A DNA stretch of 64,000 nt, from the NCBI GenBank assembly GCA_033032865.1, contig JAWHQI010000148.1, positions 2,871,501-2,935,500 of the forward strand, in the 5' to 3' direction. The notes under the pieces were generated by a model. The model saw only the letters and a program-made list of their open reading frames with translations, searched no databases and was not told the DNA's origin. The DNA is from Dactylorhiza incarnata. Taxonomy: Eukaryota > Streptophyta > Magnoliopsida > Asparagales > Orchidaceae. A program made the position numbers and the translations under genes. Every line of letters starts with the position of its first letter. The stretch's first letter is position 1. This document shows, piece after piece, positions 295 to 58,795 of the stretch.

Positions 295-620
295 AATTGT
301 GTACAACGTATGGTCGTGCGTTTCCTTGACGCACGGACGGTTGCGGTCGTGCATTCTCATCTGGGTAGAAAATGGGAGATCTGAGTTTGGTCGTGCGTTT
401 TGACGCACCGGCGGAATTGCCCGTGCATGAGTAAAACGCACGGTCGCCTGTTTCTTCCTGTTTTTAGCTTTTCTGAATTTACCCATGCATTTTGACGCAC
501 GGGCGGATTTGCCCATGCGTGAGTAAATCGCATGGGCGCGCCAGTTTCATCTTCCTGGCCTGGCTGTTTGTTAAATATCGCACGGTCCATGCACGGTCGT
601 GCATTCGACTGTGCGTGACC
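295..620 (+). repeat. Dyad-repeat array (GCACGG/CCGTGC type) upstream of L's TATA box
   Basis: At least six variants of a motif built from GTGCGT and ACGCAC or CACGG arms occur here, some forming short hairpins, for example GTGCGT at 393-398 pairing with ACGCAC at 403-408. The last copy (about 590-617) ends some 20 bases before the TATA box. Open reading frames through this stretch on the minus strand are repeat translations, not genes. Confidence 0.65.
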
Positions 621-637
621 AATTTCTGACTGATTTT

Positions 638-646
638 CTATATAAG
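638..646 (+). promoter_or_regulatory. TATA box of LTR L
   Basis: CTATATAAG lies 20 bases after the last dyad repeat and is followed by a GC-rich untranslated leader. This sets the plus orientation of the LTR. Confidence 0.6.
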
Positions 647-1268
647 CTGCAGATTCCGCCCTAGATCGGGAGATCTTCTTTCCCGCATCCAAGAGCTCCA
701 GTTTCTCCAATATCGCCGCTCCATCACCGCCACCTTTGGGAGGAGCTCCGGCCGCCATTCTCTTGCAAATCTCAAGTCGGAGCGTCCTCTAGGCCTCCTC
801 CATTGTTCGTGCACCTCCAAAGCTCCATTTTGAGGGATTTTCTACTGCATATATGAAGTTCTCCGGTGAGATCGTGGCCAAAGAAGATAGACGGAGTAGA
901 CGGGTATAATAGAAGAAGGTGACAGCTCTTCCGGACCTCGGACGGCAGTTGGAGCCCGAGCTCGGACAAGGATTGACAACCCTAGATTCGGCCGTGAACC
1001 TCCGATGAGTCTACGTGCTTTGGTTGTAATCTCAACCCCCTTTATACTGTAGTATTGTTTTCCTTTATCATTTGGGTGTATGAATAATGTTTGCTATACC
1101 TTGTTATGATATTTAGTATTTCATGTCTATGTGAAATTGATATGTGTGGTTTATGCAAGTGAGGAGCGCCCCATTCCATCCTCCATCCCGCTGTCACGTT
1201 CTTGTGCCGCACTAGCAATTGCTAGTGGTGTGCTTGTCGACGAGGTGCTTGCGACCCTCATTCCGTAA

Positions 1269-1440
1269 GACTACTCGTCCATCCGCCAAGCTAAGCGGTG
1301 CTAACGGCCCGTGTAATCCATTCGTCTAACGAAGCAGTGCGCTCAAGGCCTGCACAGTTCGATTCCACTTGCCTACTCGTCCATCCGCCCTTGCGGCGCA
1401 GTGCGCTCAAGGCTTGCCTAGTATCCATCCCGCCAAGCGA
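1269..1440 (+). repeat. Degenerate direct repeat in the U5-like part of L
   Basis: CTACTCGTCCATCCGCC occurs near 1272 and again near 1373. Each copy is followed by GCAGTGCGCTCAAGGC, with about 100 and 60 bases per unit. No reading frame is conserved across it. It is unexplained non-coding repeat structure. Confidence 0.6.
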
Positions 1441-1710
1441 AGCATTGCATAGCGGAATTGCATAGGAGTAGTTATGGCTCTTTTACTTTATTTGCCACAA
1501 ACCAAATCACCCCCTTTCGCACCCATCCGACCTTAAGGACTTCAATCTCAAGTCTTTCCTCAATGGCAAACTCCACCTTACTGTGTTCCTTCGAGATCGA
1601 TACTTGGGGATTCACTCCCACATTTTATATTACTTGACCGATCGGTACACTGTCGTTTCATGTCGTAGTCTTGCTACTGCCTATAGCGTTATGCTAAGAT
1701 TTGCGCATCA

Positions 1711-2208
1711 CTCACCCGTCTTCCTGCGAGCGACCCTTGAGACTCCGACTCGCCTACCTTGTTACTTATACGTCGAACACATAGCTGAATTTGTCGATCT
1801 CAAACTAGAGTGCGTTGAACCAAAGACAAAATCTGATGAACTGGCTGGAAGATTGCGTTCGTCGAGCTGAGAAGCAAGTTCGTCGAATGCAGAATGGCTT
1901 TCGTCGAACGAAGAACAGCTTTCGTCGACCGCAGAATGGAGTTCGTCGAACACTGAAACTTAGAAAGAATTCGCTTACCCAGAAGACCACTGCCAGCAGA
2001 CCGCGAGGATCTGGCTAGCTCATCTTCATACGAGCGGTCAGCGAGTGTCTGGCTCACCAGCCTTCCTGCGAGCGATGGGCAAGTGCCTGGCTCTCCCGCA
2101 TTCCTGCTAGCGACCCTTGAGACTCCGACTCATCTTCCTCGTGACTTCTCTCGCCTGTTGACTTCTCAATCTACGCCCATCTCTTGGCAAATATCGGGGT
2201 TGTACAAC
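1711..2208. other. Retroelement fragment of unknown family
   Basis: This stretch holds no gene. It contains a direct repeat of about 35 bases (near 1721-1755 and 2101-2135, core GCGACCCTTGAGACTCC) and the 21-bp tandem array at 1858-1962. The TTCGTCGAA cores are the reverse complement of the TTCGACGAA cores in the LTR of element K, so this may be a fragment of a SIRE-type LTR in minus orientation. Confidence 0.4.
1858..1962. repeat. Five-copy 21-bp tandem repeat with TTCGTCGA cores
   Basis: TTCGTCGA begins at 1858, 1879, 1900, 1921 and 1942, exactly 21 bases apart. Only the first eight or nine bases of each unit are conserved; the rest has diverged. This pattern suggests selection on the core and on its spacing, or recent amplification followed by decay. 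Confidence 0.8.
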
Positions 2209-2213
2209 ACTAG

Positions 2214-2485
2214 TGATGCAGCACGCCCAACCCGCCCCAGTTGGTGGAGTCACACCAGCCATCGGAACACGTCAGGCAGGTCAGTTGGTGATGAGGCCTG
2301 TTAGGAAAGGTGCTTATCAAGGAGGTCTGGGAATCGAGCCCCAGCCTCAACAACCCGCCGCGCTGAGAATAGGTGCGGAGACGGGTTGGGGTGTCTCGGA
2401 TGCAGTCCTTTCGCGGTGTGTGCCTGACGTGTTCCGATGGCTAGTGTGACTCCACCAGCCGGGGCGGGCTGGGCTTGCTGCATCA
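2214..2485. repeat. 65-bp inverted repeat at the 5' tip of solo LTR I
   Basis: Arms 2214-2278 and 2421-2485 are reverse complements with 5 mismatches in 65 positions, around a 142-base spacer. The outer ends read TGATGCAGCA and TGCTGCATCA. The left arm coincides exactly with the LTR start defined by the ACTAG duplication. It could fold into a long hairpin. Alternatives are a foldback or MITE-like element that landed at the LTR end. Confidence 0.8.
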
Positions 2486-7497: not shown

Positions 7498-8860
7498 TGT
7501 TGGATCTTGTGGCGCCCTTAGAGGGGGGGGGGGTGAATAAGGGCCTTTTTAAATTACGATTTTTACTTAAGAATTTTTAAAACAAATTTTACTTTTCTAA
7601 AAAATTATTTATATAAATTTCAACCAATGTAATTTTTAAATTAATTCAAACACAAATTTCTAAGTTAAAGATTAAGCAACCATATTTGCAATTAAAGAAA
7701 AAGTCATAATTTTATAATCATGAAATTCACATACAAATAAAATGATCTTAACAATGCTTAAGATCAAGGCACAAATATGATAATAAAACTTTTACAATTT
7801 GTGTTTACCAATCCTTCTCCCAAGGATCGGAAGGCTATCACTTGTCTCTCCCTAGACCAAGCCCAAGCCTATCCTCTAGATCTTCCCAAGATCTAGACAT
7901 AGCACACAAGGCTACGATTTCCCACCAAGCCACGCAAGGACTTGGACGCTCCGCACAAGGAAGCAGTTTTCCCCTAAGCCACGCAAGGACTTAGACGCTC
8001 CGCACAAGGAAGCGATTTTCCCTACCAATACAAAGTAAAATGTATATAAATGAAAATACAAGATAAAATAAGAACTCCCTAGAAATTCAGATCTCTGAAA
8101 GGAAGGTTGAAGCCTCGAGATGATCATTGATGTAGAAGCGCATCCGATCTCGTCTTCAATTCCAAACCTTCTCAGCATAAATGGGAGTTCATGCGGTTCT
8201 GGAGCTCTCTGGATGGAATGCACTCAGGAAGAGACTTAGAATCTTCAGAGCTATGAATGCACGAACAAAAGGAGCCAATTTATAGAATTTTGCTGTCGCC
8301 TGGGCGACATCAGCTGTCGGAAATTTCCGACAGCGCAAAACTGCCGGTCGTGCTGCTGTCGTGGGCAGTTGTTGTAACCTCCGAGCTGTCGCCTGGGCGA
8401 CATCGATGTCGGATTTCTGACAGCTCAAAACTGCCTTTCGTCATGCTGCCGTGGGGGAATTAGTTGTAACTTCTCTGTTGTCGCCTGGGAGACATCCGCT
8501 GTCGCCTGGGCGACATCAGATGTCGCTTGGGCGACATCCGCTATCGCCTGGGCGACAGCTCCTCTTCATTTTTGCCGTCCGGAACTACTCCAGACTGTAG
8601 ATTGAGTCGTTCTCATCTCCGAAATGGGGTGGCACGTTCTGTAACTCTTCCTGGATTGATAGTTATGGCCATTTTAAGATCAGCACACAAAACTCATCCA
8701 ACCTGAGACTTGTCGTTCTCGGATCATGCCCATGAACGAGGACTTGTCTCCTCATTGAACCTATACAACCTGGCCACTATAAACACACAAAAGACTAGAT
8801 CAAATACAACACGGTATTTGTTATTCTCAAACCAAGAGACGCGGAAAGCAAGCTCCAACA
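7498..8860 (-). repeat. 3' LTR of E
   Basis: 1363 bases, closely matching the 5' LTR. It has an 11-G run at 7523-7533 and six copies of the GTCGCC/GGCGAC dyad at 8295-8556. The other LTR has 7 G and five dyads, so the two copies have diverged in both tracts since insertion. Confidence 0.9.
8275..8556 (-). promoter_or_regulatory. Promoter region of E 3' LTR: TATA box plus six GTCGCC-TG-GGCGAC dyads
   Basis: On the minus strand CTATAAATTGG (8275-8285) is the TATA box. Immediately upstream are dyads at 8295-8308 and 8388-8401, then four at 8480, 8501, 8522 and 8543, spaced exactly 21 bases. A perfect 22-bp palindrome at 8313-8334 (arm GCTGTCGGAAA and its complement) lies beside the first dyad. 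Open frames here translate as repeated Gly, Asp, Arg-rich strings and are not genes. Confidence 0.8.
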
Positions 8861-14429: not shown

Positions 14430-15768
14430 TGTTGGATCTTGTGGCGCCCTTAGAAGGGGGGTGAATAAGGGCCTTTTTAAATTACGATTTTTACTTAAGA
14501 ATTTTTAAAACAAATTTTAATTTTCTAAAAAATTACTTATATAAATTTCAACCAATGTAATTTTTAAATTAATTCAAACACAAATTTCTAAGTTAAAGAT
14601 TAAGCAACCATATTTGCAATTAAAGAAAAAGTCATAATTTTATAATCATGAAATTCACATACAAATAAAATGATCTTAACAATGCTTAAGATCAAGGCAC
14701 AAATATGATAATAAAACTTTTACAATTTGTGTTTACCAATCCTTCTCCCAAGGATCGGAAGGCTATCACTTGTCTCTCCCCAGACCAAGCCCAAGCCTAT
14801 CCTCTAGATCTTCCCAAGATCTAGACGTAGCACACAAGGCCACGATTTCCCACCAAGCCACGCAAGGACTTGGATGCTCCGCACAAGGAAGCGATTTTCG
14901 CCTAAGCATCGCAAGGACTTAGACGCTCCGCACAAGGAAGCGATTATCCCTACCAATACAAAGTAAAATGTATATAAAATGAAAATACAAGATAAAATAA
15001 GAACTCCCTAGAAATTTAGATCTCTGAAAGGAAGGTTGAAGCCTCGAGATGATCGTTGATGTAGAAGCGCATCCGATCTCGTCTTCAATTCCAAACCTTC
15101 TCAGCATAAATGGGAGTTCATGAGGTTCTGAAGCTCTCTGGATGGAATGCACTCAGGAAGGGACTTAGAATCTTCAGATCTATTAATGCACAAACAAAAG
15201 GAGCCAATTTATAGAATTTCGCTGTCGCCTGGGCGACATCAGCTGTCGGAAATTTCCGACAGCGCAAAACTGCCGGTCGTGGTGCTATCGTGGGCAGTTG
15301 TTGTAACCTCCGAGCTGTCGCCTGGGCGACATCGATGTCGGATTTCTGACAGCTCAAAACTACCTTTCGTCGTGCTGCCGTGGGGGAAGTAGTTGTAACT
15401 TCTCTGCTGTCGCCTGGGCGACATCCGCTGTCGCCTGGGCGACATCCGCTGTCGCCTGGGAGACAGCTCCTCTTCATTTTTGCCGTCCGAAACTACTCCA
15501 GACTGTAGATTGAGTCGTTCTCATCTCCGAAATGGGGTGGCACGTTCTGTAACTCTTCCTGGATTGAAAGTTATGACCATTTTAAGATCAGCACACAAAA
15601 CTCATCCAACCTGAGACTTGTCGTTCTCGGATCATGCCCATGAACGAGGACTTGTCTCCTCATTGAACATGTACAACCTAGCCACTATAAACACACAAAA
15701 GTCTAGATCAAATACAACACGGTATTTGTTATTCTCAAACCAAGAGATGCGGAAAGCAAGCTCCAACA
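14430..15768 (-). repeat. 5' LTR of E
   Basis: 1339 bases; the start TGTTGGATC and end CTCCAACA match the other LTR. It has a 7-G run at 14456-14462, a TATA box on the minus strand at about 15204-15214, and five GTCGCC-type dyads. Confidence 0.9.
15204..15464 (-). promoter_or_regulatory. Promoter region of E 5' LTR: TATA box plus five dyads
   Basis: Dyads start at 15224, 15317, 15409, 15430 and 15451; the last three are again exactly 21 bases apart. The perfect 22-bp palindrome is at 15242-15263. One 21-bp unit fewer than in the 3' LTR shows gain or loss of a unit after insertion. Confidence 0.8.
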
Positions 15769-15773
15769 CAAAA

Positions 15774-16577
15774 GACAAATATAAAAACAACCTATGAGGA
15801 AATTTGAAGGAGACGCCGAAGAATCGTTGAAGATTGTTGAAGTCCAAGCGTGCGTTCTTCGCATTGAGTTAGCGTGTTGATCTAAGCCTCCTTTTATTCC
15901 TCCTTTTGAAATTTAGTGGGATATCCTTTATGGTCTAGAAATACGGCCCTCACAAGTAATTCAGAGTGCTGGAATAGGTCTCCTTAGCATTCGTTGTTGG
16001 AGAACATGAAATCCACCTATTTATAGGATTGGACGCTAATGCCGGCATTACGGCTAACGCCTAGCGTTGACCTAGTATAGAAATGTTTTGATGGCTCAGA
16101 TCTTCAAAACAGGAAGGAGATTCTGCATCTTTAGAAACATCCATTTTAGGCAACCTTAATGCTGGTGTTAAGTCTAATGCCTGGCGTTGAGTCAAATCAT
16201 TCCCAAAATGCTCCTACGATCACGTCAGCTTCCCTCCATGCCATTTTCATCTTGTTGGGAATGAAAGTCAATGCTGGCGTTAAGAATTAACGTCGGGCAT
16301 TAGCTCTCTTCCATCATCTCAGCGGAAATCCATATCGTTGATCATCTCAGTGGTAAGCCATCTCATCATTTGTCAACGCCCAACATTAAGTCTTAACGCC
16401 TGGCGTTACACCACTTTCATCATTTCAACTTGTGGGAAGTTCCAGACCAATAATGAATCATCCTAGTGTCATACCTATTCAAACCTGCATGCTAAAAACA
16501 CAATGGCAAACAAGATCAAATACAAGTAGGATTTGTTATTCTCAAATCAAAGGGATGCAGAAAACCATGTTCCAACA
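15774..16577 (-). repeat. 5' LTR of F, distal part with promoter palindromes
   Basis: Continues the LTR of F after E and ends GTTCCAACA. On the minus strand a TATA box (CCTATAAATAGG, 16016-16027) is preceded by four palindrome pairs at about 16032-16072, 16157-16190, 16270-16305 and 16373-16412. They are variants of TAACGCC-GGCGTTA; some have AATGC in place of AACGC. Confidence 0.8.
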
Positions 16578-20023: not shown

Positions 20024-21539
20024 TGATAGTACATTATTTATATTTATTTTTAAATAATATTTTATTAGTAATTAATTAGTTTTTATATAATTTTAGTTTA
20101 ATATTTATATAATTTGCTTTGTTTTGTGTTTTTAGGAAATCTGTGGCTGCTAATAGCAATTTCAAGCCCACAGCCGTGTTCAGGGGAAAATCTGGAACAT
20201 TTTGGAGAAAACTCCAAGTACATGCCGCAAGTCACTCGCGTGACCTGAGGTATGACTCCATGTCAAGGTCGTGACCCATCCTAGCCGTCTTCCAGCTGCC
20301 AGAACACGCTGCCACGTCGGATTAATATTACACACCCTTTGTCATGGGCGTGATAGAGGGCGTGACTCACCCCAGAAATCCTTCAATGCATACAGCTTCC
20401 AGTCGCACTGTTTCTACCTAACACGCCCTTGGTCGCGGGTGTGACCGAAGCGTGACACCTCCGCAACTGCCGAATTAACTCTTGATCGCATTGTTTCCCA
20501 CCGTTTCCAGGCTCGGTCAAGACACGCCCTAGGTCACGGGCGTGACCTAGGCCGTGACCCGCCGTGCAATTGATTTTTTGCAGTTTCTCTTCCCCAACAT
20601 TCCTAGGCTTTCAAGCCGTAGTTACATAGCTTACACGCCCTTGGTCACGGGCGTGACCAAGGGCGTGACTCAACAATTTTCTGCCTATAAAAGACCAGCT
20701 GCTGCCAAAGTGATGGAATCCAGTCCATGCTTAGATTGGGTCAATTTTAGAATAGTTTTATTGCATTTTCATTTTTTTCTTTCCTTTATGCAATTTACTT
20801 TATGTTTTGCAATTTCAATTCATAGTTTAGAATTTCCTTTTCTCGCAATTGTAATTCTCTTTTCATAGTTATAAAATGTTCTCCTTTTCAATTATGTTTA
20901 GCCAATTTTATAGTATTTAATCGGATGAATTCCTAATCTTTTGTATTTCATAATCTCTTATTCATAGTTTGGATTCGGAAAACTTTGATTTACCGTTGAT
21001 TTAAAATTTTGGTTCCATATTTCTAGTGTATGATAATCAAGCTTTGATCCATATTTTAGTTGATCAAGAGATCCGTAAATACGTGTAGATCGCTAATCGG
21101 TAAAAGGAGTTGCATGCACTCCTCGAGAGAGGAAGACATAAATCTTTCGGATTGGAGTCAAATCCAATAGTGGGGTTCACCGCATAAAGCAAGCTTAGGG
21201 GTTTCGACTGGCCGAGGGTTCTTAATCGATCAACCTAAGGTTAGTTGGTAGTATTACTCGAGAGAGGTGCTATCATTTTGTAGGAACCTCCATGATCAAG
21301 TTTGTCTAAATCAGTTTCCTATGAATTCTAGATTTACGAAATATTTTAGTTAAGAAGGATTCTCAATGAAATGTTTCTTTCTTTCCTTTTATTATTTTTT
21401 TCATTAAACCAATTATTATTTTTGATAAAATAATATTAATTTGCATGAGTAGAAGTAATCAGCAGACCCGTGGAATACGACACTTGATATTTATCTATAA
21501 ATATCCTATACTATGAACGATAGGTGCTCCTGCCTATAG
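20024..21539 (+). repeat. 5' LTR of B, first part
   Basis: Matches 34049-35211 almost throughout. K splits it at TATAG, and the last 45 bases lie at 31092-31136. It carries the dyad-rich promoter described next and an AT-rich U5. The frame at 20554-20868 is not a gene; the same stretch in the 3' LTR reads differently. Confidence 0.9.
20520..20693 (+). promoter_or_regulatory. Promoter of B 5' LTR: GTCACG-GG-CGTGAC dyads and TATA box
   Basis: A 34-bp hairpin with perfect 16-bp arms (20634-20649 and 20652-20667, centre GG) ends 17 bases before CTATAAAAG at 20685-20693. A second large dyad lies at about 20527-20555, and weaker copies occur back to about 20230. The 3' LTR repeats the pattern at about 34647-34708, with one arm base changed. 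Confidence 0.85.
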
Positions 21540-21690
21540 TGTTGGAGCTTGTGTTTCACATCTCTTAGTTTGAGAATAACAAATCACACTATGTATTTGA
21601 TATTGCTTGTGTTTATAAGTGTGCAGGTACTATTGTTAAATAACCCTATGTACAGGATGCTGTTTTGCTGACGATTCTCTGGAAAGAGAG

Positions 21691-21934
21691 AGTCAACGCC
21701 AGGCATTAGGACTTAACGCTGGCATTAGCCGTTCGACGAACTGAACTGCGCTCGACGCTTTGAAGATAACTGCGCTCGGTTTATTGCGTTCGACGAACTG
21801 AACTGAAACCAGAGTCAACGCCAGGCGTTAGGACTTAACGCTGGCGTTAGCCGTTCGACGAACTGAACTGCTCTCGACACTTTGAAGATAACTGCGCTCG
21901 GCTTATTGCGTTCGACGAACTGAACTACGGCCGA
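21691..21934 (+). repeat. Two-copy 122-bp tandem repeat in U3 of K
   Basis: Units start AGTCAACGCC at 21691 and 21813. Each holds one palindrome pair and two TTCGACGAACTGAACTG motifs. The 3' LTR has the same two units, starting at 29869 and 29991, so the duplication predates insertion. Confidence 0.85.
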
Positions 21935-22083
21935 TGATCGTCGAACGGAACTGCGATCGACGAATTGAAGTTAATTCCGTTCGACGAAGGCGCGTTCGAT
22001 GAATTTTGTTTCGTTCGACGAAATTTCGATCTACCACGCTCCCGACTTCTTGCACGACTACAACAACTGCCAGACACGATGCT

Positions 22084-22137
22084 TAACGCTGGCGTTAATG
22101 ATAACTCTAGGCGTTAGCTCCCGTGTCTATTTAAAAG
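22084..22137 (+). promoter_or_regulatory. K 5' LTR core promoter: palindrome pair and TATA box
   Basis: AACGCTGGCGTTA and a degenerate TAACTCTAGGCGTTA are followed after 10 bases by CTATTTAAAAG (22127-22137). The 3' LTR has the same arrangement at 30261-30315, with a better second palindrome (TAACGCCAGGCATTA). Confidence 0.75.
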
Positions 22138-22912
22138 ACCTGATTTCGGTGTTCAATTTAGTTTTTCTGAAGCCTTCACTCCAATCTTTTGAGAAAGCAT
22201 TTCATCCCCGAATTCAGAGAACTCCCAACACCACCATTGGGGAACAAGAGTGAGAAGGAAATTTGCAACGGTCAATTTGAAGAAGGACGCTCGTTTCAAC
22301 TCCGATGATGATCAAAGTGTGTCTTCAACATCTCCTTCAACACTCTTCAATATAGGGAGTCTTTTATTCTAATTTGTATCTTTATCTTTTCATTTACTTA
22401 TAACCGTAGTGAAATCGCCGCCTTGCATGTGACGACTAGGTCCTTGTGTGGCTTAGGGGTAATTCGCCGCCTTGTGCGTGGCGACTAGGTCAAGGGTAGA
22501 TCTAGGGGGTGGCTAGAGGCCTTATCTGGGGATAGATAGGCTATAGCCAACCGGTCCTTGGGAGAAGGACCGGTGAAGGAACAAAAAGAGATCTTCAACT
22601 TATCGCCTTAATTTCAAGAGTTATTGAAATATTATCCTTGTAATCATTTTATGAAATATAAAAACCTTTTTCAGTATATCTATTTTCCTGGATTTGTATT
22701 TCATTTGAAATTGTGCAAGTAAAATCTTTTTGTTTATTTCTGCCAAAATATTTTCTGGAGGGATAACGCCATGCGTTAACTAGTCAACGCCAAGCATTAG
22801 CATCAGTGCTAAAAAGTTTTTCTGTTTCTTTAAAATCTGTCAGTTTATCTTAAAAACAGTAAACCCCTTATTCACCCCCCCCCCCTCTAAGGGCGCCATT
22901 AGATCCAACACT

Positions 22913-27986: not shown

Positions 27987-29713
27987 GCCTTATAAAAAGC
28001 TATCAAATTATTTTATGTACTTTAATTTTTTTTTCTTTACAAAAAAAATATTAATTAAAAATCAATAAAAATTTAAAAACTATGGGAAAACCACCAATAA
28101 CACGCTAAAAAGGCCATCATATCAACTCCATAATGTCTGAAATTTCAACTGTATGAAGGCCTATTTATATTACAAATGTATCATAAAAAATATTTTTCAA
28201 AAAATCAAAAATTAGTGTTCTGTCTTGGCTTTAAGAAGTAAACGCCTGGCGTTAGCTTCTATGCTCATAAATTTCTTTTGTGTTTTTACAACTGTGTTGG
28301 TATTTTGGTGTGTTTTCTTTCAAAACTTAAAAACAAAAAAAATTACTATAAGCTTAAATGTTGATTTCAAGGATGATTATATAGATATTGGTTCAAGATT
28401 ATTTACAATGTTTAATTTAAACCTTCAAGTTTCATTAAAAACATTGTTTTGATTTAATCATGCCTTCAAAATCAATTATCTTCAAATGTGCAAAGAGTTT
28501 GAGAATAGATAACATATGTCGAAATGCTTTTACATGCCTCTAAGTATGAGTAAAGTTTTTATCTTTGATAATGATTTTCTCACTTACACTTTTTGGTTAA
28601 TATACATGTGTTTTTAAATCTTATTTTTACATGGTTGTGTAGTATAAGAACTTATTTTGAATTTCATAAACAATTTACCTACACAACATTGAATTCTTTC
28701 TTGAATTCATTGTTTTTCATGCACTTATATTTAGAGAAATGTGGTAAATAAAATTTAAAACAAAAAAAATAAAAAACTTTGTTTGCTAAACAAGTGAATT
28801 TAGAGTCCTTTGTCACTAAGTCTAAAAAGCAACAAATGAATGACAAGGATAACTCCACCAAGCACTACTTGAACCTCCTGATAAGTCTTAATGAGCATTG
28901 TGAGGTTGAGCACCTTGGAAAGAATTGTAAAGTGTCTTGTGCAAACAAGATTTTCACCACCTCTTTAAAAACAATCTATAGTACATTGAAATTTGTGAAA
29001 GTAAAGTTGTTGTGTTCAATTTAATTTATGCTCTTACATTACATAGTTTCATGTGGTTTGATTTCTACACTTGTATGCTTTATCAAAACACATTTATTGT
29101 ACACATCATTATCAAGTATAATACTTCCACTCATGAGAATTAGACTTAAAGCTTACCTACATTGTTCTCTACAATCATGAATAAATGCAGTAGATAGCAA
29201 AGCATGATCTTTACAATGTTTATGATTTCTTGAAATGCAAATTATTTTACATTGTAAACCTATCTTCCCTTGATATTATATATTCTTGCTTGCTAACTTT
29301 AAATATTCTAAATTTCAAATGTATTTGCAACTTGTGTATTTCATTTCAAAACATCCACTTATTTTATTTACAACGCTTATTAAGTTTTTGTTCTTACAAA
29401 TTCTTAACGATGTTCAAATATTGCTTTCGCTGTGTTCACTTTAAAAGAAAAGTTGCAATTATCTCTACAGAGTGCACAAAAGAACAAATTCCCACTACTC
29501 AGCCCTATCTCCTTTTGATTATAACAAAAGGGGGAGAAGAGACTAACTTCAAGAAATAACTTAGAGAAATCTATTATTTAGGGGGAGTACTTTATGACAT
29601 GCATTCATGTAGGGGGAGTATTCACATAGGGGGAGTTTGCATGATTATCACGCTTATCATATACTATAAACACAACTCTATTTTTATTTCTTATTAGTGG
29701 ATTTGTTATTATC
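27987..29713 (+). other. Trailing region of K between pol and 3' LTR
   Basis: About 1.7 kb, AT-rich, with no convincing gene; the frames of 60-109 residues are low-complexity. It has a palindrome (AACGCCTGGCGTTA, about 28236-28251), one 61-bp conserved unit, and GGGGGAGT repeats near 29578-29637. The layout mirrors the 3' regions of C and E. Confidence 0.7.
28858..28918 (+). repeat. Conserved 61-bp SIRE 3'-region unit, K copy
   Basis: Begins CCAAGCACTACTTGAACC, has CTGATAAGTCTTAATGAGC, and ends CACCTTGG. K has only one copy where E and C have two. Confidence 0.8.
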
Positions 29714-31091: not shown

Positions 31092-31160
31092 TTCGAAGAA
31101 TTTGGAGAAATAATTTATACAAAATTTTATTTATCAAGTTTTTGGCGTCGTTGCCGGGGA
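31092..31160 (+). other. End of B 5' LTR and B primer binding site
   Basis: The LTR resumes after K and ends TTATCA at 31136. TGGCGTCGTTGCCGGGGA at 31143-31160 is the primer-site motif known from Athila-type elements. D has TGGCGCAGTTGCCGGGGA in the same place. Confidence 0.85.
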
Positions 31161-34048: not shown

Positions 34049-35211
34049 TGATAGTACATTATTTATAGTTATTTTTATATAATATTTTATTAGTAATTAA
34101 TTAGTTTTTATTTAATTTTAGTTTACTATTTATCTAATTTGCTTTGTTTTGTGTTCTTAGGAAATCTGGGGCTGCTAATAGCAATTTCAAGCCCACAGCC
34201 GTGTTCAGGGGTAAATCTGGAATATTTCGGCAAAAACTCCAAGTGCACGCCCTAGGTCACGGGCGTGACCTGGGGCGTGACTCCATGTCAAGGCCATGAC
34301 CCAGCCTAGCCATCTTCCAGCTGCCAGAACATGCCGCCACATCAGATTAATATTAAATGCCCTCTATCACGGGAGTGACAGAGGGCGTGACTTGCCCGGG
34401 CAAGCCTTCAATGCATACAGCTTCTAGCCACACCGTTTCTAGCATACACGCTCTCGGTCACGGGCGTGACCCCTCCGCAACTGCCGAATTAACTCCAGAT
34501 CGCGTCGTTTCCCTCCGTTTCCAGGCTCGGTCAAGACACGCCTAGGTCACGGGCGTGACCTAGGCAGTGACCCACCGTGCAATTGATTTTTGGTGGTTTC
34601 TCTTCCCCAATGTTCCCGGGCTTTCAAGTCGTAGTTACGCGGCTTACACGCCCTTGGTCACGGGCATGACCAAGGGCGTGACTCACCAATTTTCTGCCTA
34701 TAAAAGACTAGCTGCTGCCCAAGTGATCGAATCCAGTCCATCCTTAGATTGGGTCAATTTTAGAATAGTTTTACTGTATTTTCTTATTTTCTCTCCTTTA
34801 TGCAATTTACTTTATGTTTTGCAATTTCAATTCATAGTTTAGAATTTCCTTTTCTCGCAATTGTAATTCTCTTTTCATAGTTATAAAATGTTCTCCTTTT
34901 CAATTATGTGTACCCAATTTTATAGTATTTGATCAGATGAATTCCCAAGCTTTTGTATTTTGTAATCTTTTATTCATAGTTTGGATTTGGAAAACTATGA
35001 TTTACCAATGATTTGTAATTTTTGGTTCCATAATTCTAGGGTATGATAATCAAGCTTTGATCCGTATTTTAGTTGATCGAGAGATCCGTGAATACGTGTA
35101 GATCGATAGAATGAGTTGCATGCACTCCTCGAGAGAGGATGCCATCAATATTTCGTATTGGAGTCAAATCCAATAGTGGGGTTCACCGCATTATGCATGC
35201 TTAGGGGTTTC
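34049..35211 (+). repeat. 3' LTR of B, first part
   Basis: Starts TGATAGTACATT and matches 20024-21200. It is interrupted after GGGGTTTC by C. The TATA box (CTATAAAAG) near 34708 follows the dyad array. Confidence 0.9.
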
Positions 35212-36295
35212 TATTGGATCGGTAGGCGCCCTTAGAGGGGCGGGGGGGGGGGGGGGGGGGGGGGGGGTGAATAAGGCTTTTTAAAACTTAAGTTATATTT
35301 TGATTATCTTTGAAATAATGCATGAATAAGAAAGTGAGAAATCAAACAAAATAATTAAAATAAAGTGGAGACATGTTTTATTAATATGAAATAAGGTTTT
35401 TCAACAATTGATTTCTATAACGCTAGAAATCGGTGGTGAATAATAGTAAGCTCTTTTTGTTTTCTATCCCGAGTCGCATCCCCACGAACCGGTGGCCCTA
35501 GCCTATCCTTCTCCAGATTTGCCCTCAAGCCGCTCTAGCCAATCCAACCCTGGATATAGCCTTGAGCACCCCGTAGACCTAACCTATATCTATTCGCCAA
35601 CATGAGGTGAATTTCTGCCCTAAGTCCTACCCAGACCTAGTCGCCAACACGAGGCGAATTATCTAACGGTTTACAAGAAATATGAAATGATAATAAAAAA
35701 ACTCCCTCTTGAAGAACTTCTGAAGTTGGAGACTATGATCCGCTGTGAAATAAGCGTTGTAGAAGCGGACATTGTTTGGATCCGACGTGAAGAGATTCTC
35801 CTTCAGTAATCCGTAGAGCTTTGGTAGGACATCAACTTTCGACCAAACCAGCCTCTGGAATTCTAGCACTCAATCTCTCTCTGATGTCCATGTGAAACGA
35901 TAGAAGAGGGGTCCAAAAAATAGCCTCAGCGCTAGCGCCGGCGCTATCCCGTATTAGGCATTATTCTATGCGGGAGAATCTTCAATCCAAGGAAACATTT
36001 CTCTCCTGCCTTCTGTGCTCCGTGCTATCGCATGCGCTATCCTCTATGGCCAGGCGCTAGCTCCTTCTATATGTGCTCCAGAATTTTGCTAATCATCGTT
36101 AGCGCCAGGCGCTAGGTGCTACTGCCAGTGCTAGTGGGAATGATGGATTTGTTGGCTCAAATTTGGGGGCAACCTTCTTATGTAATCCTTAAGTCATATG
36201 GACCTTGTTTCCTGCACACTAAAACACACAAGAAGAAATACACATAGGATTTGTTATTCTCAAACCTAGGAGATGCAGAAGACCATGTTCCAACA
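35212..36295 (-). repeat. 3' LTR of C
   Basis: 1084 bases ending GTTCCAACA. It has a run of 26 G (35242-35267) near the terminus. Palindromes TAGCGCC-GGCGCTA lie at 35933-35946 (perfect 14-mer) and near 36031-36062 and 36103-36141. The TATA box region reads AAAAAATAGCC here and is better kept in the other LTR. Confidence 0.85.
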
Positions 36296-36302
36296 AACTC
36301 CC

Positions 36303-38065
36303 TGATGACGAGCTTTTAGGCATCGTTTTTAGGTTTAAATTTCCCTAGTTTTAATTATATTCTCTTTGCATTTTATGGTTGTTAAGCTTTAATATTGTTA
36401 TTTTATGATTTTATGTTATTTTATGTTATGTTATGTTATGTTTTAATGTTGTTATTATCTAATGTTTGCTATGTTTAATTATGTTAAGTAATGTTATTTC
36501 TTAATAAAACTAATTTTATCCTTTTTTATGTAGGATACACCATGCAACCCTCCTCTTTGAAGCAGCCCGAGCTCTCCCTTTGATGCAATCCAAGTACAGC
36601 CGAACCTACATGGTGCAGCCCCTTCATTTGGAGCAGCTCCCAAGCACAAAACCGAGCAGCCCCCTCCTTCATCTGGTCTACCGGAGCAGCTCCTAAGCAC
36701 AAAACCGAGCCCCCCTCTTCATATGGTGCAGCCTCCCCTTGTCAAAACTGAGCAGCCCATCTCAAGCATGCAAAACCGCCACCTTTTGCATTAAAATTCA
36801 TGCATGGCTCCCATTATTGCTTGGACCGGCCCTCTCTCTCTCTCCCTTTTTTTTATTTTCATATCCATTTAACTCTCATACATCCCCTTCTCTCTCTCTC
36901 TCTCTTATTTTTCTTTCTACATTTCTTTTAATTAACATGCATGCATGGCTTTATCTCTCTCTCTTCCTATTTAATTCATGCATGTACCTTCCCATGCATG
37001 CACCTCTCTCCCCCTCCTCCCATTAATTGAAATACATGCATCCTCCCAAGCATGTGGCCGGCCACCCCCTTATCTCCCCTCTCCTCTTCATTTTCCTAGA
37101 ATCTTCCCCTCCATCTATAAAAGGAGCCCTCCTTCATGCTTATGAAAGAACTTTTGGCAAGGGAACTTTTTGAAGGGAGAAAGAGAGCAAGAGAGTTCTA
37201 GTTTCAAGTTTGCTTTTCTAATGTTGTAATTTTATTTCTTCTTCAAGGAATTCTATTTCTAGGTAATTTTATCTTTGCTTTAAGTTATTGTTCAAGTTTG
37301 TTGTACTACTCTTTTTATTCACTAATGAAAATGCAAACCTTCCTTTACATCTTTGTCTCAACTTCCATTATGCGTAGCTAATTTTCTTTAGCGTTCAATC
37401 ACGATGATCCATGAATTGAGATGAGATTATTTTTTATGTCTTAGTTTTGCTTTTGTTTAAATTATTCTCGATCCTTCTTTGAATTATTTTGCGTCGACTC
37501 CGTATTTTCGGTATACGATAGTAGGCCGTTGATCGCATTTCATAGTAGTCGAGAGACTCATTGATTTGAAAGATCGCTCAAAGAAGGAAGGAGTTGCACG
37601 CACCCCTAGAGATAGGATGACGTAAATCCTCCGAATTGGAGTCAAATCCAATAGTGCGTTTCACTTCGATAATGCGACTTTAGACCTGTTTGATTTGTGA
37701 AGAGATTCCGATTAAACCGTTTTTAAGTTAGGAGATTTAGTGCTCTAGCGAGACTATCTCTCATTTTCGGAACCGTCACGGTCGAGAATTATTTTGCAAT
37801 CGTAGAACTAAATTTTATTTCTCTCTCGTCTCTTTTCATGGTGATTCTTTGATCGAATGTTAGTTTTCTCTTCTGAATTTCCGTTTAAGTAATCTCGTAG
37901 TTTGATTTAGAAATTCTCAAAAATCATCAACAAATCGTACGGTAGGATAATAGTTGGAAGCGTGAGTAGTAATACTTGACAGCCCCGTGTTTTAAATACG
38001 ACCTTGGTACTACAATTCGATAGGTACACTTGCCTCTTCGGGTTGATAGTCAATCTTAATCACCA
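36303..38065 (+). repeat. 5' LTR of D
   Basis: 1763 bases. It contains a TTATG microsatellite at about 36411-36444 that is shorter in the 3' LTR, CT-rich tracts near 36835-36905, several CATGCATG strings, and the TATA box CTATAAAAG at 37115-37123. It lacks the dyad palindromes seen in the other LTRs. Frames at 36494-37026 are not genes. Confidence 0.9.
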
Positions 38066-49283: not shown

Positions 49284-49887
49284 CTAGCGCTAGCGATAGC
49301 GCTGGCGCTAGCGCTCCTTTAATTAAATCCCCTTTACCCTGTCATTTCGGCCATTGTCATTGAAGCTCTCTCGAAAAACCCGAGAAGATAACGCAGCCCA
49401 CTCATAGATCAAAGGTAAATCTTCATCATTTTTTTGTTTTAAACTTCGATTTTGATGTTGAAGAAGAAGATATTTGAAGTTATTAAGTGGTTTTAGAAAC
49501 TAGATCTACAATGCTTGATTCTTTTATTTTTGAAGAGAGGAACTAGAACAAATCTTCCTTATTTTTATGATTCTTGTTCTAAGTAGTTGATTTTGATGTT
49601 TGTGATGAAGATTTATGACCTCTTAAAAAACATTTGATGTTGATTATAGATCTAAAATGAATCTTCAAGATTTTTGTTTTTCATTTTGAATTTTGTATGA
49701 GGTTTTTTAGTTTTGATTTTGGCTTAGATTATGTAGGTTTCTTGCATCTAGCAATTTAGGATTTGGAAATCTTTTATTTTAGAGAGATCTTAATATTTCG
49801 GATCAGAGAACTAGCGTCGGCGCTACTGCAGGCACTAGTGCTAGCGCCGGGCGCTAGTGCTAGCGCTGGCGCTAGTGAATTTTGCAG
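49284..49887 (+). promoter_or_regulatory. Putative promoter, leader and intron of an antisense gene in C
   Basis: Palindromes of the TAGCGCTGGCGCTA type at 49284-49312 are followed by a TTTAATTAAAT stretch, echoing the palindrome-then-TATA layout of the LTRs. A leader with CTCTCTCGAAAAACCC follows. A possible splice donor AAAGGTAAATC lies near 49411 and an acceptor TTTTGCAG at 49880-49887, right before the ATG. A second palindrome cluster at 49805-49878 lies inside this putative intron. The splice assignment is inference. Confidence 0.45.
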
Positions 49888-53900: not shown

Positions 53901-56053
53901 GTGGATATGTTTGTGGGGGCATTAAATGTCTTAGGAAATTTAAATGGGAATTTTAGAGGCATTTCAGTATTTTCTACCTAAAAAATGAAATAGCCACCCC
54001 TTTTCTTAATAAATCGAAATGCATGGTCATAGGACCTTGTATGGTGTTGAAACTCCATCAGTGGCTGATTAGGGATGAAGTTGTACAATGGTAATTTTGT
54101 TATAATTTATTGAGGTGTTATTCCTTATGTAAGAAATTTTAAGTACTTGCTATCTTAGGTGAATTTAATTTTGAAAAATATCAAATCATGGGGCAAAAAT
54201 GTGATATTTGGTTAACTGTCATTAAATGATATTATATACCCATGATAATTTTTTGGAAGCTATTGGAATTGTATGTCACATACTTCATGTAGGAATTGAG
54301 ATTTACATCACTTGAGTATTTAATCTTTTTAAAATGTCAAATCACTTGGTAATGACACATTCTTCTGGAAAAGGACTCTAGGTCCCCATATGAACATTGG
54401 GTAATTTCTGTAGAATTTTCAGAATTGAAATTACTATTTTTCCTAATTATAGTGGCATTTTGGTAATTATACAATTATGATGTTATGGTAGGCCAAATGA
54501 CATCCTAGGGTCATGATACTCAGTGAACCACCTTTATTTGGGATATTACCTTACTGATAATTTTCATGTAACATGAGGAATCATTTTGAGGGTTGTTCAT
54601 GTGTAATTTGGCTTAAGTCCTTAACTATATTGAATTAAAATAAATACCAAATTAATTTGGAAAATTATGGAAATTGGACAATACCTTATTAAGGTCAGTA
54701 GTAGCCTAGGATAATTATACCAGACCCTGGAGATGAGGTTTTAGAGGAATTCCCTTATGGGGTTGAGGGATAGTTCAAATTGGTGGACTCTGGTTTGTAA
54801 AAACTGAATTTGGTGGACTGCGTTTAGTAAAAACAGAATTTGGAGTTTTTGACAATTTAGATCCCTAAGTAGTGGGTAGGTGTTATACCCAATCAGTAAA
54901 TGAGATATAGCCCACCAGGATTCAAGGAGGGTCAATTCTAGGGATAGTTGTGAGGTTGTGCTGAGGTCATTGTAGAAGGAAAGGAGGTACGTCAAACCCA
55001 ATTGAGTGGGACGGGGGGGATGAGCTAAATCACTTTACTATATGAAATGATTAAGGATGAACCAAGTGTTATCCATCAACTAAAATAATTATCTTGAAGA
55101 GGATTGTGGGGTTGAGCCCATTGATCTGTAGTACCGTTAGGGGCCCCTTACGGAGTACACCGCGGGAAGTCCAAGATTCACTCTAAATATAACACGAACT
55201 AAATTGTAGGCAAGAGTAGCCTAAGTGGATATGCAGACTGGTATGGATCTCCTCAGTGAAGGAGGTGGGTTGGATCAGCTGGTGTGTTAGTCCCTGAGCT
55301 GGAAGCTCGGGTGGACAGGTTAACACCTATTACTTATTCAAATAGTGGCGAGTCTTCGGTACTAGGCTAGTCGTGTCACCGACGGTAGTACGTTGACTCA
55401 GGTGAGGGTGAGGTTTAGAGGGCCGGTAAGTTTGAATACCGTGGTCTGGAGGACAATCCCTAATAACCCACCCCGACCTTAAAGTCTGGTGGATTCCAGC
55501 AAGAGTACGCAGGAGCTCCGCTGTTGTGTTATTAGCGTTGAGGCATACATGAGGTCTAGGCTTGGTAGTGACCATACCCGCCTAGGATGTGGAGTGCCCG
55601 ATCCACTGCCACCGTGAGCCACGACGGTCGGTACCCGAAAGGTTGGCTTCCTTTCAAACAAATTGGGAACTATAAAGGTCTGTGCGCATAGAGTCGTGTG
55701 GGTGAGTCACATTGCATAAATTCATTAAAACATCATAACCATAGCATAACATAACATACACATAGCATACTCCCATCATATAAATTAGTATGGGCTCTTT
55801 TATATGATGGGTTTCCTGGACGTCTTAACTTATATGTCGTATGGGCGTTCATATAAGTTAAGGTACGAATCTGTGATGGTAGTTTCGATTTACTTACTGC
55901 ACTGCTTTTCTTTCCATTTACTGCTTACTTCATTGCTCTACATTACAGATAGAGCCAGCGCTAACTGGTAGCGCCAGCAGACAGTGTCCAATGAACATGT
56001 GTTCAAATACCTATATTATTACACAACTTGAAACTAGTTTCCCTCAGGTCTGT
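50967..56053 (+). mobile_element. G: long Tekay-like LTR (solo or truncated) inside C
   Basis: It starts TGTAACATCCCCAATCC, close to the H LTR start TGTAAGACCCCCAATC. A TATA-like TCTATACAAG at 51915-51924 precedes a GC-rich leader (51930-52470) with a 12-C run at 52231-52242. About 3.5 kb of AT-richer DNA follows, then a conserved-looking stretch at about 55130-55650. There is no pol frame or primer site. The right edge is set only by the point where C's 5' LTR resumes. No matching target duplication was found, so deletion is likely. The 153-residue Pro-rich frame at 52013-52474 belongs to the LTR leader and is not called as a gene. Confidence 0.5.
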
Positions 56054-57088
56054 AAGTATATTTTGATTATCTTTGAAATAATGCGTGAATAAGAAAGTAA
56101 GAAATCAAACAAAATAATTAAAATAAAGTGGAGACATGTTTTATTAATATGAAATAAGGTTTTACAACAATTGATTTCTATAACGCTAGAAATCGGTGGC
56201 GAATAATAGTAAGCTCGTTTTTTTTCTATCCGGACTCGCATCCCCACAAACCGGTGGCCCTAGCCTATCCTTCTCCGGATTCGGCCTCAAGCCGCTCTAG
56301 CCAATCCAACCCCGAATATGGCCTTAAGCACCACCTAGACCTAACCTAGATCTAGTCGCCAACATGAGGCGAATTTCTGTCCTAAGTCCTACCCAGACCT
56401 AGTCGCCAACACGAGGTGAATTCTCTAACAGTTTACAAGAAATATGAAATGATAATAAAAAAAACTCCCTCTTGAAGAACTTCTGAAGTTGGAGACAAAG
56501 ATCCGTCGTAGAATAAGCATTGTAGAAGCGGACATCGTTTGGATCCGGTGTGAACAGATTCTCCTTTAGAAATCCGCAGAGCTTTGGTAGGACATCAACT
56601 TTTGGCCAAATCAGCCTCTGGAATTCTAGCACTCAATCTCTCTCTCTCTCTCTCTCTGATGTCCATGTGAAACGAAAGAAGAGGGGTCCAATTTATAGCC
56701 TCATCGCTAGCACCTGCGCTAGCGCTACCACCGGCGCTATCCCGTATTAAGCATTATTCTGCGTGGGGGAATCTTCAATCTGAGGAAACATTTCTCTCTT
56801 GCCTTCTGTGCTCTGCGCTACCGCCTGCGCTATCCAGTACCGCCAGGCCCTAGCTCCTTCTATATGTGCTCCGAAATTGCGCTAATCATCGCTAGCGCCG
56901 GGCGCTAGGTGCTACCGCCGGCGCTAGTGGGCATGTTGGATTTGTTGGCTCAATTTTGGGGGCAACCTTCTTATGTAATCCTTGAGTCATATGGACCTTG
57001 TTTCCTGCACACTTAAACACACAAGATCTAATACACATAGGATTTATTATTCTCAAACCAAGGAGATGCGGAAGACCATGTTCCAACT
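56054..57088 (-). repeat. 5' LTR of C, inner edge missing
   Basis: Matches 35295-36295 and ends GTTCCAACT. The TATA box on the minus strand (GGCTATAAATTGG, 56688-56700) is directly preceded by palindromes at 56704-56743. A 17-mer with CTAGCGCC and GGCGCTAG arms is at 56892-56908. A (TC)n tract lies at 56637-56658. Confidence 0.85.
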
Positions 57089-57093
57089 TTTTC

Positions 57094-57472
57094 GACTGGC
57101 CGAGGGGTCTTAATCGATCAACCTAAGGTTAGTTGGTAGTATTCCTCGAGAGAGGTGCTATCATGTTTTGGAAACCTCCATAGTTAAGTTTGTCTAAATC
57201 AGTTTCCTATGAATTCTAGATTTACGAAATATTTTACTTATGAAGGATTTTCGATCAAATGTTTCTTTCTTTCTTTTTATTATTCTTTTCATTAAACCAA
57301 TTATTATTTCCTATAAAATAATATTAATTTGCGTTAGTAGAAGTAATCAACAGACCGGTGGAATACGACACGTGATATTTATCTATAAATATCCTATGCT
57401 ATGAACGATAGGTGATCTTGCCTATTGTTCGTAGAATTTGGAGAAATAATTTATCCAAAATTTTACGTATCA
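57094..57472 (+). repeat. 3' LTR of B, last part
   Basis: Continues from 35211 after C: GACTGGCCGAGGG to TATCA. It matches 21210-21539 plus 31092-31136. Confidence 0.9.
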
Positions 57473-57477
57473 CACCG

Positions 57478-58795
57478 CATAGAAATAATCATCATATACG
57501 TCGACTCAGGGCCACACGTATTGTGCTCTCAAGGTACGACATCCACAAGTCCTTTTTCAACTTGGATGGTCAAACCGATTGAGCTAGGTCGTACACACTT
57601 CATGTTTTTCGGCTTCTTCCATAAGATGGCGTACCGAGGGGCTCCCTCACCACTGACCACTATGGGAGGGTTCAGATCAAGCTAGGCCCAGCTCAATCAT
57701 TGTGAACACATGATGCCGGTAAGCTTTCACCTCAGCCCGACAAAAAACAACCGCACTGGGTCATCAGAACAGCCTCAGGGGCCATTTCTACATGCACACT
57801 GTGATATTTTGTATCACTAGCACTAGCGCGGGCACTAGCACTAGCGCGGGCACAAGCTAATAGAACTCATTTATGCCAGCTCTTTCTGGTATTTCCTGGA
57901 GGTAGCCTCTAGGACTCCCTGCAGCACATCACAACACTCAGAACCCGAAAACAAGCATACATACTCGGAGACTTCTCCGGAGTGCAATATAACATATCAA
58001 CATAACCAATCCAGACCAACCTGTCCAGATGGGCTTCACACAGTATGCCTATGTCCGTACATCGATATGGACACTATATGCAATTTTCTACGGGGAGACT
58101 CCATATCAACCCATCAAAAGAGCATATCCACTAATTAGTGGAAATCTTCTAGCTACTATGCGAATCAAAGGACTACCCTGTCCAGAGATTTAGGAGGAGA
58201 ATCATTACCCTTGATGCTCATTTCAGTGCCATCGGACCAGGATTCCTCTCCACGCGGTCGAAGACGGCACAAGAACTCAAGAAGCCTTCTACCTTGGACT
58301 TGCCTAGCCAACAAGACTTCCATCCTCTGACTTCTACTTCCTAGCCTTAGGAGAGAGATAGGATCAGAGGGAACTTAAGAGAAAACTATGGCCTGAAGGC
58401 TATATATAATAAACCGTTACCGCCGACGCTAGCCACTAGCGCCTGGCGCTAGCCCAGAGGCGGTACGGCTTAGCCGCTTATGGATTCGTCGAGAAATGCT
58501 ACCGCTACCGCTAGCGCTACCGCCTGCGCTAGCTCTCTACAAGCCGAATTCACGAGTGCGCAACATAATTTGTCGGAATACATTTGTCGGGAAACAATGT
58601 CATCGAGGAGCAACCGCTAGCGCTAGCACTCGATAATGCATCTTGATGCTTTCGACGATACACACAAGTCCCTTCGTCGATATGCTACTAATTCGACAAT
58701 AAGAGCTACCGCCGCCGCTAGCCCTAGCACCCGGCGCTAGCTCCTTAGCTTAGTACACCACGAATTCTTTGCACCTAAAGATTGGGGGTCTTACA
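57478..58795 (-). repeat. 3' LTR of H, proximal part with promoter palindromes
   Basis: Ends (plus strand) GGTCTTACA next to the polypurine tract. A TATA box on the minus strand lies at 58399-58411 (TATTATATATAGCC). Palindromes of the TAGCGCC-GGCGCTA type lie at 58416-58456, including a perfect 17-mer 58436-58452, and at 58500-58535, 58610-58632 and 58708-58745. A direct repeat CACTAGCACTAGCGCGGG is at 57816-57853. No gene is present. Confidence 0.8.

Follow-up and report, generated by a model that had tools for sequence, protein, structure and literature searches.

Arrays of inverted palindromic half-sites upstream of the TATA box in retrotransposons classed as Copia and Gypsy in the orchid Dactylorhiza incarnata

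Do retrotransposons of different lineages build their promoters from palindromes in a common way? The question is raised by a 64,000-nt stretch of the Dactylorhiza incarnata genome (contig JAWHQI010000148.1, forward-strand positions 2,871,501 to 2,935,500; G000:C543:2871501-2935500), hereafter the window, which has a GC content of 0.38 and consists of a nest of long terminal repeat (LTR) retrotransposons in a genome of 3.27 Gb in 3,184 contigs. A first-pass annotation had claimed that seven LTR families (L, B, E, F, K, C, and H) carry family-specific, GC-rich dyads just upstream of the TATA box, that D and I/M lack them, and that a common promoter architecture recurs across the seven. The dyads are real and the recurring architecture is supported, with a positional link to TATA in four of the five many-copy families; the seven families are not, however, separate cases. 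The TATA boxes had been placed to within 1 base in plus-strand elements, and in minus-strand elements the base given lies within 2 of the low-coordinate end of the box (first bases in element orientation are listed in Table 1).

Within the window, dyads were counted under strict definitions (arms of at least 6 or at least 7 nt, spacer of at most 4 nt, GC of at least 0.5 over the whole dyad). With arms of at least 7 nt, 33 were found, against a mean of 2.2 (range 1-5) in whole-window shuffles. Twenty-two of these 33 lie in the set of eleven U3 regions, which covers 9.3% of the window and for which local dinucleotide shuffles predict 0.7; none lies in D. With arms of at least 6 nt, there are 56 dyads in the window versus 13.6 (6-22) in 20 whole-window shuffles, 27 of them in U3s (3.1 expected from local dinucleotide shuffles) and four in two D U3s. 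Similarly, applying the GC cut-off to the arm instead gave 72 dyads versus 13-25 in 5 shuffles. The words named in the annotation are all present. For individual LTRs (exact dyads of any GC, 300 dinucleotide shuffles), paired bases in the U3 exceeded the shuffles at p<=0.02 in L, B5, B3, E3, E5, F, K5, and C3 and at p 0.033 in H; the excess was not significant in K3 (p 0.073) or C5 (p 0.060). The supposed absence from D did not stand: U3 paired bases are in excess in D5 (p 0.030), none of the 300 shuffles reaches D3, dyad numbers are also raised (p 0.03 and 0.003), and the dyads include CATGCATGCATG and GTGGCCGGCCAC, the latter at -49 in both D LTRs. D is thus not a clean control. The I/M stretches as placed here (1711-3800 and 62000-64000) contain no GC-rich dyad, as claimed.

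In most window LTRs the dyad nearest to TATA (at most one mismatch) is indeed close, between -6 and -34: -34 in L, -18 in B5, -6/-7 in E, -11 in F, -29 in K5, -17 in K3, -7 in C3, and -27 in H. The exceptions are B3, with none listed nearer than -133, and C5, at -193. The TATA-proximal dyads of F (TAATGCCGGCATTA) and K5 (TTAACGCTGGCGTTAA) are not GC-rich. At a GC of at least 0.5, the 40 nt before TATA contain the end of a dyad in 0/2 K, 0/1 F, 1/2 B, and 0/2 D window LTRs.

Of the 40 places listed per genome search, the analysis covered 28 (L), 30 (E), 30 (C), 21 (H), and 17 (K, to which its second window LTR was added); the window's own copy is part of every set. B, F, and D are known from window LTRs alone. 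One E locus (L010) and one C locus (L059) entered the enrichment test and no part of the conservation, proximity, word-sharing, fold, and half-site analyses. For E, C, H, and K, the search queries were placed downstream of TATA and thus contained none of the dyads; the L query (window 500-900) took in part of U3, including the -34 dyad. U3 dyads exceeded shuffles in 8/8 L, 30/30 E, 25/30 C, 20/21 H, and 18/18 K copies. A dyad ended within 40 nt of TATA in 18 of 28 L copies (5.4 expected under uniform placement), 20/29 E (8.8), 17/29 C (3.5), and 15/18 K (4.5), counting dyads that hold a CpG in K and those with GC of at least 0.5 in the other families. The L dyad ends at -34 in 17 copies and at -33 in one.

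The unit of the arrays is a half-site rather than a fixed palindrome. Every family has one or two short, GC-rich words: E uses TGTCGCC/TGTCGGA, K and F use TAACGC[C/T], C and H use CTAGCGCC/CTACCGCC, L uses ACGCACGG, and B uses GTCACG/CACGCCC. Neighbouring half-sites (gap of at most 8 nt) have opposite orientations in every case in E (267/267) and K (31/31), in most cases in C (86/91) and H (69/77), and in 55/75 cases in L; once CTAG self-overlaps are removed, the counts are 69/74 in C and 46/54 in H. Where half-sites face inwards, the gap is 2 nt in 126/166 pairs (E), 0-1 in 20/20 (K), 2-3 in 40/41 (C), and 2 in 20/20 (L). It is looser in H (2-3 in 25/46), whose half-sites face both ways, as CTAGCGCC-N-GGCGCTAG and GGCGCTAG-GG-CTAGCGCC. 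The K pair occurs as CTAACGCCAGGCGTTAG at -10 or as CTGGCGTTAACCCTAACGCCAG at -17, and among L dyads with arms of at least 7 nt the commonest spacer is 6 nt (33/83). In the five many-copy families, most words belong to inverted pairs that face in or out; such pairs are repeated over the length of U3, and the final pair is usually near TATA (H unclear). Exact B words, counted in the two window LTRs, form 8 direct and 5 inverted neighbours; because direct neighbours occur as well, B cannot be said to follow the inverted rule. Another set of K words, TTCGTCGA/TTCGACGA, was excluded from the counts, 138 of its 148 neighbour pairs arising by self-overlap. A helical-phase or fixed-period reading was also dropped: steps are 20-29 and 70-99 nt in E and 80-109 nt in L, but C, H, and B are out of line.

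How many lineages carry these arrays? E has Sirevirus signatures, namely five AGGGGGAG tracts near its 3' LTR (8863-9147), an AT/TG attachment site, and a CA/ATTGG/TATCAGAGC junction, the last two exact. K likewise has five tracts, an exact AT/TG, a CA/CTTGG/TATCAGAGC junction one base off, and a Copia reverse transcriptase (PF07727), and both show, as judged by eye, a C-rich integrase signal near the LTR end. In C, four AGGGGGAG tracts, a C-rich LTR end, and a TT/TG attachment site beside the D insertion were found; the Sirevirus junction was not found (the 5' LTR is truncated). The F LTR start resembles a C copy (71 nt at 88.7% identity), no AGGGGGAG tract or junction was found at the F locus, and F would be Sirevirus-like by its LTR start only. 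These signatures, partial in C, point to E, K, and C as one lineage (Sirevirus, Copia) that probably includes F, and the seven families therefore do not amount to seven independent cases.

The remaining three would be of another superfamily. H is classed as Gypsy by its predicted domains (RNase H, PF17917; integrase; SH3-like; a chromodomain match below cut-off, E 0.025), and its TGTAAGACC end is one that we take to place it near Tekay/Del. A primer site TTTTTGGCG..GTTGCCGGGGA is found in B, D, and two L copies (L004, L008), with no match at the remaining L loci scanned; in B and L it reads TGGCG.CGTTGCCGGGGA in place of TATCAGAGC. We take this type to be typical of Athila/Tat Gypsy elements, and B and L are provisionally classed as Gypsy by primer site. 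No Pfam match was obtained for three frames within L or for two next to it, and L may therefore be non-autonomous. D encodes Gypsy-type gag, RNase H, and integrase; B and D have a 116-nt LTR stretch in common at 66% identity, with an array in B only.

Symmetry is kept while words change, as the annotation had proposed, but the words are not strictly family-specific: one is common to F and K, and another, CTAGCGCC, to Copia C and Gypsy H. Single window copies of these two families have 41 canonical 8-mers in common (6.0 expected, maximum 17 in 300 shuffles), these 8-mers overlapping, so that the independent words are fewer. The corresponding figures are 46 for K-F (9.7 expected, maximum 21), 25 for C-F (7.3, maximum 17), and 30 for E-K (11.3, maximum 29); what C-F and E-K have in common is mostly AT-rich words. 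The genome has 5,655 places with the dyad CTAGCGCCNGGCGCTAG, compared with 0 for a backward-pattern control, which means that any factor binding it has thousands of sites. Twenty of these places, taken from the first contigs listed rather than at random, were fetched: 16 best match C-type LTRs, three match H (68-90% over short stretches, not positioned relative to TATA), and one, which matches none of the references, precedes a Copia gag stretch (PF14223, E 1.8e-6). At L131:421-540 the shared dyad has another context, a cluster holding both TAGCGCC and TAACGC words roughly 100-200 bases ahead of a Copia gag stretch.

Such sharing could mean that a U3 block was captured by one lineage from the other, through reverse transcription or recombination, instead of the same word being selected twice by a host factor; this is compatible with any of the other readings discussed here. 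The longest exact string common to C and H (24 nt) and local matches of 36-66 nt among the best 12 of 10,761, the top one scoring 57.2 bits versus 31.0 in 20 shuffles, speak for a captured block. However, among the same best 12, the similarity is mostly confined to the array and lies at unequal distances from TATA (ends at -293 to -361 in H and -61 to -257 in C), and 54 of the 63 common words are GC-rich. We consider capture possible but, on balance, somewhat doubtful.

We read the dyads as arrays of inverted half-sites for host DNA-binding proteins, which would form the proximal promoter and enhancer of the LTR, and give this reading a probability of about 0.5. It is favoured because of the inverted order, the tight facing-in gaps, the position near TATA, and the sharing of words across superfamilies. 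Further points in its favour are the dyad enrichment over dinucleotide shuffles in window LTRs and in copies of five families, words that switch in both arms at one position, and the low variation of L arm positions outside CpG. Host proteins would bind the inverted half-sites in U3, the bound arrays would activate LTR transcription, and lineages would switch words and reuse one another's under selection for the same host factors. The site of a dimeric regulator, suggested by the annotation, is plausible. Among known plant factor sites, TGTCGG may resemble those of auxin response factors and CGTGCG those of the brassinosteroid response.

Several points weigh against binding by host proteins. 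One rigid dimer would account neither for the facing-out pairs nor for the several gap classes, and tandem duplication of a palindromic unit would alone yield an alternating order. Although dyad enrichment over shuffles holds in copies of all five families, it continues downstream of TATA, at a lower level: mean paired bases are 32.0 versus 8.7 in shuffles for E (30/30 copies), 18.8 versus 8.0 for L (7/8), and 10.8 versus 6.3 for C (25/30), and in C the copies with downstream excess are as numerous as those with upstream excess. The link to TATA is unclear in H (6/21 within 40 nt, 4.0 expected), and the L proximity count is biased because the query held the -34 dyad. Copies of one family are also related, and some are the two LTRs of a single element: the 28 L copies include three probable pairs of this kind, about 5 kb apart (L006/L069, L007/L077, L008/L071), and similar pairs 7-8 kb apart occur once each in E and C (L024/L035, L047/L068). 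Because position is inherited within a family, the proximity counts are not independent trials. Finally, conservation of the arms is not significant in E, C, or H (109/163, 30/161, and 61/174 circular shifts as low), in a test whose arm mask is partly self-selecting.

Some of these points would suit arrays that are by-products of U3 evolution, in which tandem duplication, template switching, or conversion between units left symmetry without function. The U3s contain tandem repeats (about 93 nt in E, about 122 nt in K), dyads are present downstream of TATA too, and the arms of E, C, and H lack significant conservation. Entire dyads seem to have been swapped for neighbouring types: the E pair at -9 is of the TGTCGCC type in some copies and of the TGTCGGA type in others, both arms switching, and K copies have three pair types at -10 to -30. 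Against by-products, GC-rich dyads recur in lineages taken as three and lie near TATA in four families, D has no array despite the primer site and LTR stretch that it has in common with B, and one word serves two superfamilies. In addition, L arms are conserved, their positions outside CpG varying less than the rest of U3 (0.072 vs 0.166; 5/171 circular shifts as low). Arm conservation as a general proof of selection was dropped, being significant in L alone among L, E, C, and H. Overall, we find it unlikely that the arrays are functionless by-products.

Turnover of words is also visible between LTR and interior. An internal stretch of E aligns with K (154/198 identical) and retains the TAACGCC word in one arm; E has an internal TAACGCC dyad at 12408-12422, whereas its LTR word is TGTCGCC, which suggests that the LTR word changed and the internal word stayed. 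The surrounding segment of E (12380-12440) holds a TAACGCCAGGCGTTA dyad and additional half-sites.

Dyads could also act as RNA, as hairpins in the U3 part at the 3' end of the genomic RNA or in silencing-pathway transcripts, serving small-RNA production or an RNA function. In maize, the palindrome regions of Sireviruses are reported to be small-RNA hotspots with strong predicted structure (PMC5311732, PMC10760457). Here, in the window copies of L, E, and B, both strands of the 250-nt segment preceding TATA gave better folds than shuffled sequence (z -3.8 to -7.0), and loop-like spacers of 6-8 nt are frequent among L dyads. Yet D, which has no array, reaches z values of -4.0 and -3.0, against about -1 for C and about -2 for H and K, and the sense strand has no consistent advantage; since D scores like the dyad families, the fold scores are not discriminating and were set aside as hairpin evidence. 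The facing-in spacers of 0-3 nt that are commonest in E, K, and C allow no loop without opening pairs. Covariation, analysed for L at six partly overlapping sites, gave 15 and 25 double-changed cells at two sites versus 6.9 and 13.0 in shuffles (0/1000 shuffles reach them) and a weaker excess at a third (5 vs 2.1; 21/1000 shuffles reach it); pairing there is retained through two-sided changes. The other three sites showed no excess, and the double changes resemble a few inherited variants. One-sided losses in L that keep a sense-strand G-U pair number 82 versus 65 that break it, no clear excess. The structure in nascent RNA suggested at first pass thus finds no specific support, and hairpins seem improbable as the role of the dyads.

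Is an architecture of this kind already known? The U3 of the tobacco Copia element Tnt1 contains repeated enhancer boxes upstream of TATA that regulate transcription. The likeness to Tnt1 is that of regulatory repeats upstream of TATA, by description and not by sequence. Tnt1 tandem repeats are mentioned in passing in PMC3601003. The closest precedent, which overturns the annotation's statement that no description was known, is the set of 13 palindromic repeated motifs (RM boxes) that Bousios et al. (2010; PMC2829016) described before the TATA box of Sireviruses. According to the passages of that paper used here, the RM motif is absent from the classic retrotransposons of its Ty1/copia set, Sireviruses have a large gag with a coiled coil, and near-identical motifs occur in distant Sireviruses (Osr10, Osr8, Vitis, Inga), which is a precedent for word sharing. 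Like RM boxes, the present dyads are palindromic, repeated, mostly element-specific, and located upstream of TATA in U3, with additional copies in the internal linker. Unlike the description of RM boxes in those passages, E has different LTR and internal words, and the main words here have CGCC-GGCG rather than CGG-CCG arms, except for TGTCGGA in E and some L dyads. By eye, a CGG-CCG core is present in some L dyads (CACGG...CCGTG) and in the second H word when facing out, and not in B dyads or the main H dyad.

Gypsy elements are left untreated in the same passages of PMC2829016, whereas an RM-type palindromic repeated motif upstream of TATA is found here in L, in H copies, and in B (two window LTRs). 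These would not be Sirevirus hosts, judging from the domains of H and the primer site of B and L (no coding domain for B or L). The RM definition asks for at least 8 copies per element; L and H have 1-4 and 0-4 perfect GC-rich dyads per copy, and 8.4 and 7.8 half-sites. In maize, clusters of Sirevirus palindromes are reported as hotspots of small RNAs (Bousios et al., 2016, cited by PMC5311732 and PMC10760457), and the maize Copia palindrome is reported to be the commonest motif of structured Helitron regions (PMC10760457). The present arrays resemble the maize clusters as palindrome-rich LTR cis-regions of variable sequence, and differ in their words, in being shared between a Copia and a Gypsy LTR, and in being known from DNA sequence alone. 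PMC10760457 also states, citing others, that in several element types the cis-regulatory region often consists of arrayed repeats, which are sometimes palindromic; the general idea therefore predates this work. LTRs of Del (Gypsy) have a CpG-rich, fast-changing 5' block, related in PMC4029996 to CpG-rich regions upstream of TATA; it differs in that "palindrom" does not occur in the main text of that article as available. Other candidates were set aside: palindromes in PMC6911290 and PMC5738225 are, in the parts used, insertion targets and not promoter arrays, Retand (PMC11963269) has internal tandem repeats and not promoter palindromes, and the portion of PMC3648361 on centromeric repeats does not mention palindromes. 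Literal-term searches of open-licence literature for such arrays in LTRs, those of Gypsy included, gave no report of palindromic arrays in Gypsy promoters among the papers listed and the passages covered. What goes beyond PMC2829016, as far as its passages extend, is the architecture in elements classed as Gypsy (H; B, L) and the word common to Copia C and Gypsy H.

More generally, we tentatively suggest, with slightly less than even confidence, that arrays of palindromic words represent a promoter design general to plant LTR retrotransposons rather than a Sirevirus trait. The design would have arisen or been acquired in at least three lineages here, and a stock of words would pass between Copia and Gypsy through the same host regulators or through U3 blocks exchanged directly. 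Should unrelated retrotransposons indeed use common promoter words, joint expansion of families may depend on shared host factors, the palindromes would be a place to seek these factors, and the view of the motif as Sirevirus-only would be corrected.

Table 1. Features of the window (window coordinates; TATA as first base in element orientation). The L LTR end and primer site were taken from genome copies; class labels follow signatures, domains, or primer site.
Feature	Position	Strand	TATA	Dyads and remarks
L, U3 of 3' LTR	8..638 (LTR 8-1710)	+	639	word ACGCACGG/CCGTGCGT; dyads 393-408, 589-604
E, 3' LTR (Sirevirus by signatures)	7498..8860 (analysed with ends up to 7 bases off)	-	8284	TGTCGCC-NN-GGCGACA 8294-8309, 8387-8402; TGTCGGA type 8313-8334; also 8510-8526
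E, 5' LTR	14430..15768	-	15213	15223-15238, 15242-15263, 15316-15331, 15408-15423, 15429-15444
F, truncated LTR	15769..16577	-	16025	TAACGCCTGGCGTTA 16394-16408; TAATGCCGGCATTA 16037-16050
B, 5' LTR up to K insertion	20024..21539 (resumes 31087-31136)	+	20686	34-nt dyad 20634-20667 (16-nt arms, 2-nt centre); second dyad 20528-20551
K, 5' LTR (Sirevirus by signatures)	21540..22910	+	22128	21817-21829, 21836-21849, 22083-22098 (TTAACGCTGGCGTTAA)
K, internal copy of LTR word	28241..28253	+		AACGCCTGGCGTT; precedes polypurine-tract cluster; aligned E site GACTGGCGTTAG, word in one arm
K, 3' LTR	29727..31086	+		29873-29885; five AGGGGGAG tracts directly upstream (29529-29724)
B, primer-binding region	31139..31160	+		TTTTTGGCGTCGTTGCCGGGGA; type common to D and L
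B, 3' LTR up to C insertion	34049..35219 (resumes ~57090-57472)	+		34254-34271, 34456-34471, 34540-34565
C, 3' LTR	35220..36295 (low end approximate)	-	35923 (TATA-like stretch)	TAGCGCCGGCGCTA 35933-35946; TAGCGCCAGGCGCTA 36100-36114
D, Gypsy LTR, control without dyad array	36305..38065	+		single GTGGCCGGCCAC at -49
C, internal cluster, same word as C LTR	49286..49875	-		49286-49303, 49841-49857, 49860-49875
C, 5' LTR	56053..57087 (damage at both ends)	-	56698 (from C before TATA)	CTAGCGCCGGGCGCTAG 56892-56908
H, LTR (Gypsy by domains), start TGTAAGACC	57475..58795 (low-coordinate end approximate)	-	58408	CTAGCGCCTGGCGCTAG 58436-58452; GCTAGCGCTAGC 58616-58627
H, pol remains	58891..61269	-		RNase H, integrase, SH3-like domain, chromodomain match below its cut-off

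In the nest itself, K lies within the B 5' LTR, C within the B 3' LTR, and D within C at C's terminal polypurine tract. Self-comparison of the window gave LTR-pair identities of 96.3% for D, 95.1% for E, 93.7% for K, 88.9% for C, and 88.5% for B. At 36298-47410, Gypsy element D interrupts the polypurine tract and separates it from the C 3' LTR, with CTCCC on either flank as target duplication. On the gag side of E, a frame at 12956-14086 (376 aa) gives weak coiled-coil matches below cut-off. The K U3 contains a 122-nt tandem duplication (21689-21926), present in both LTRs. Exact TTCGTCGA/TCGACGAA words number 5.5 per window LTR in K and 1.57 per copy in H, and beside L, in an unassigned stretch at 1780-1990, repeated TTCGTCGAA-type words resemble those of K and H.

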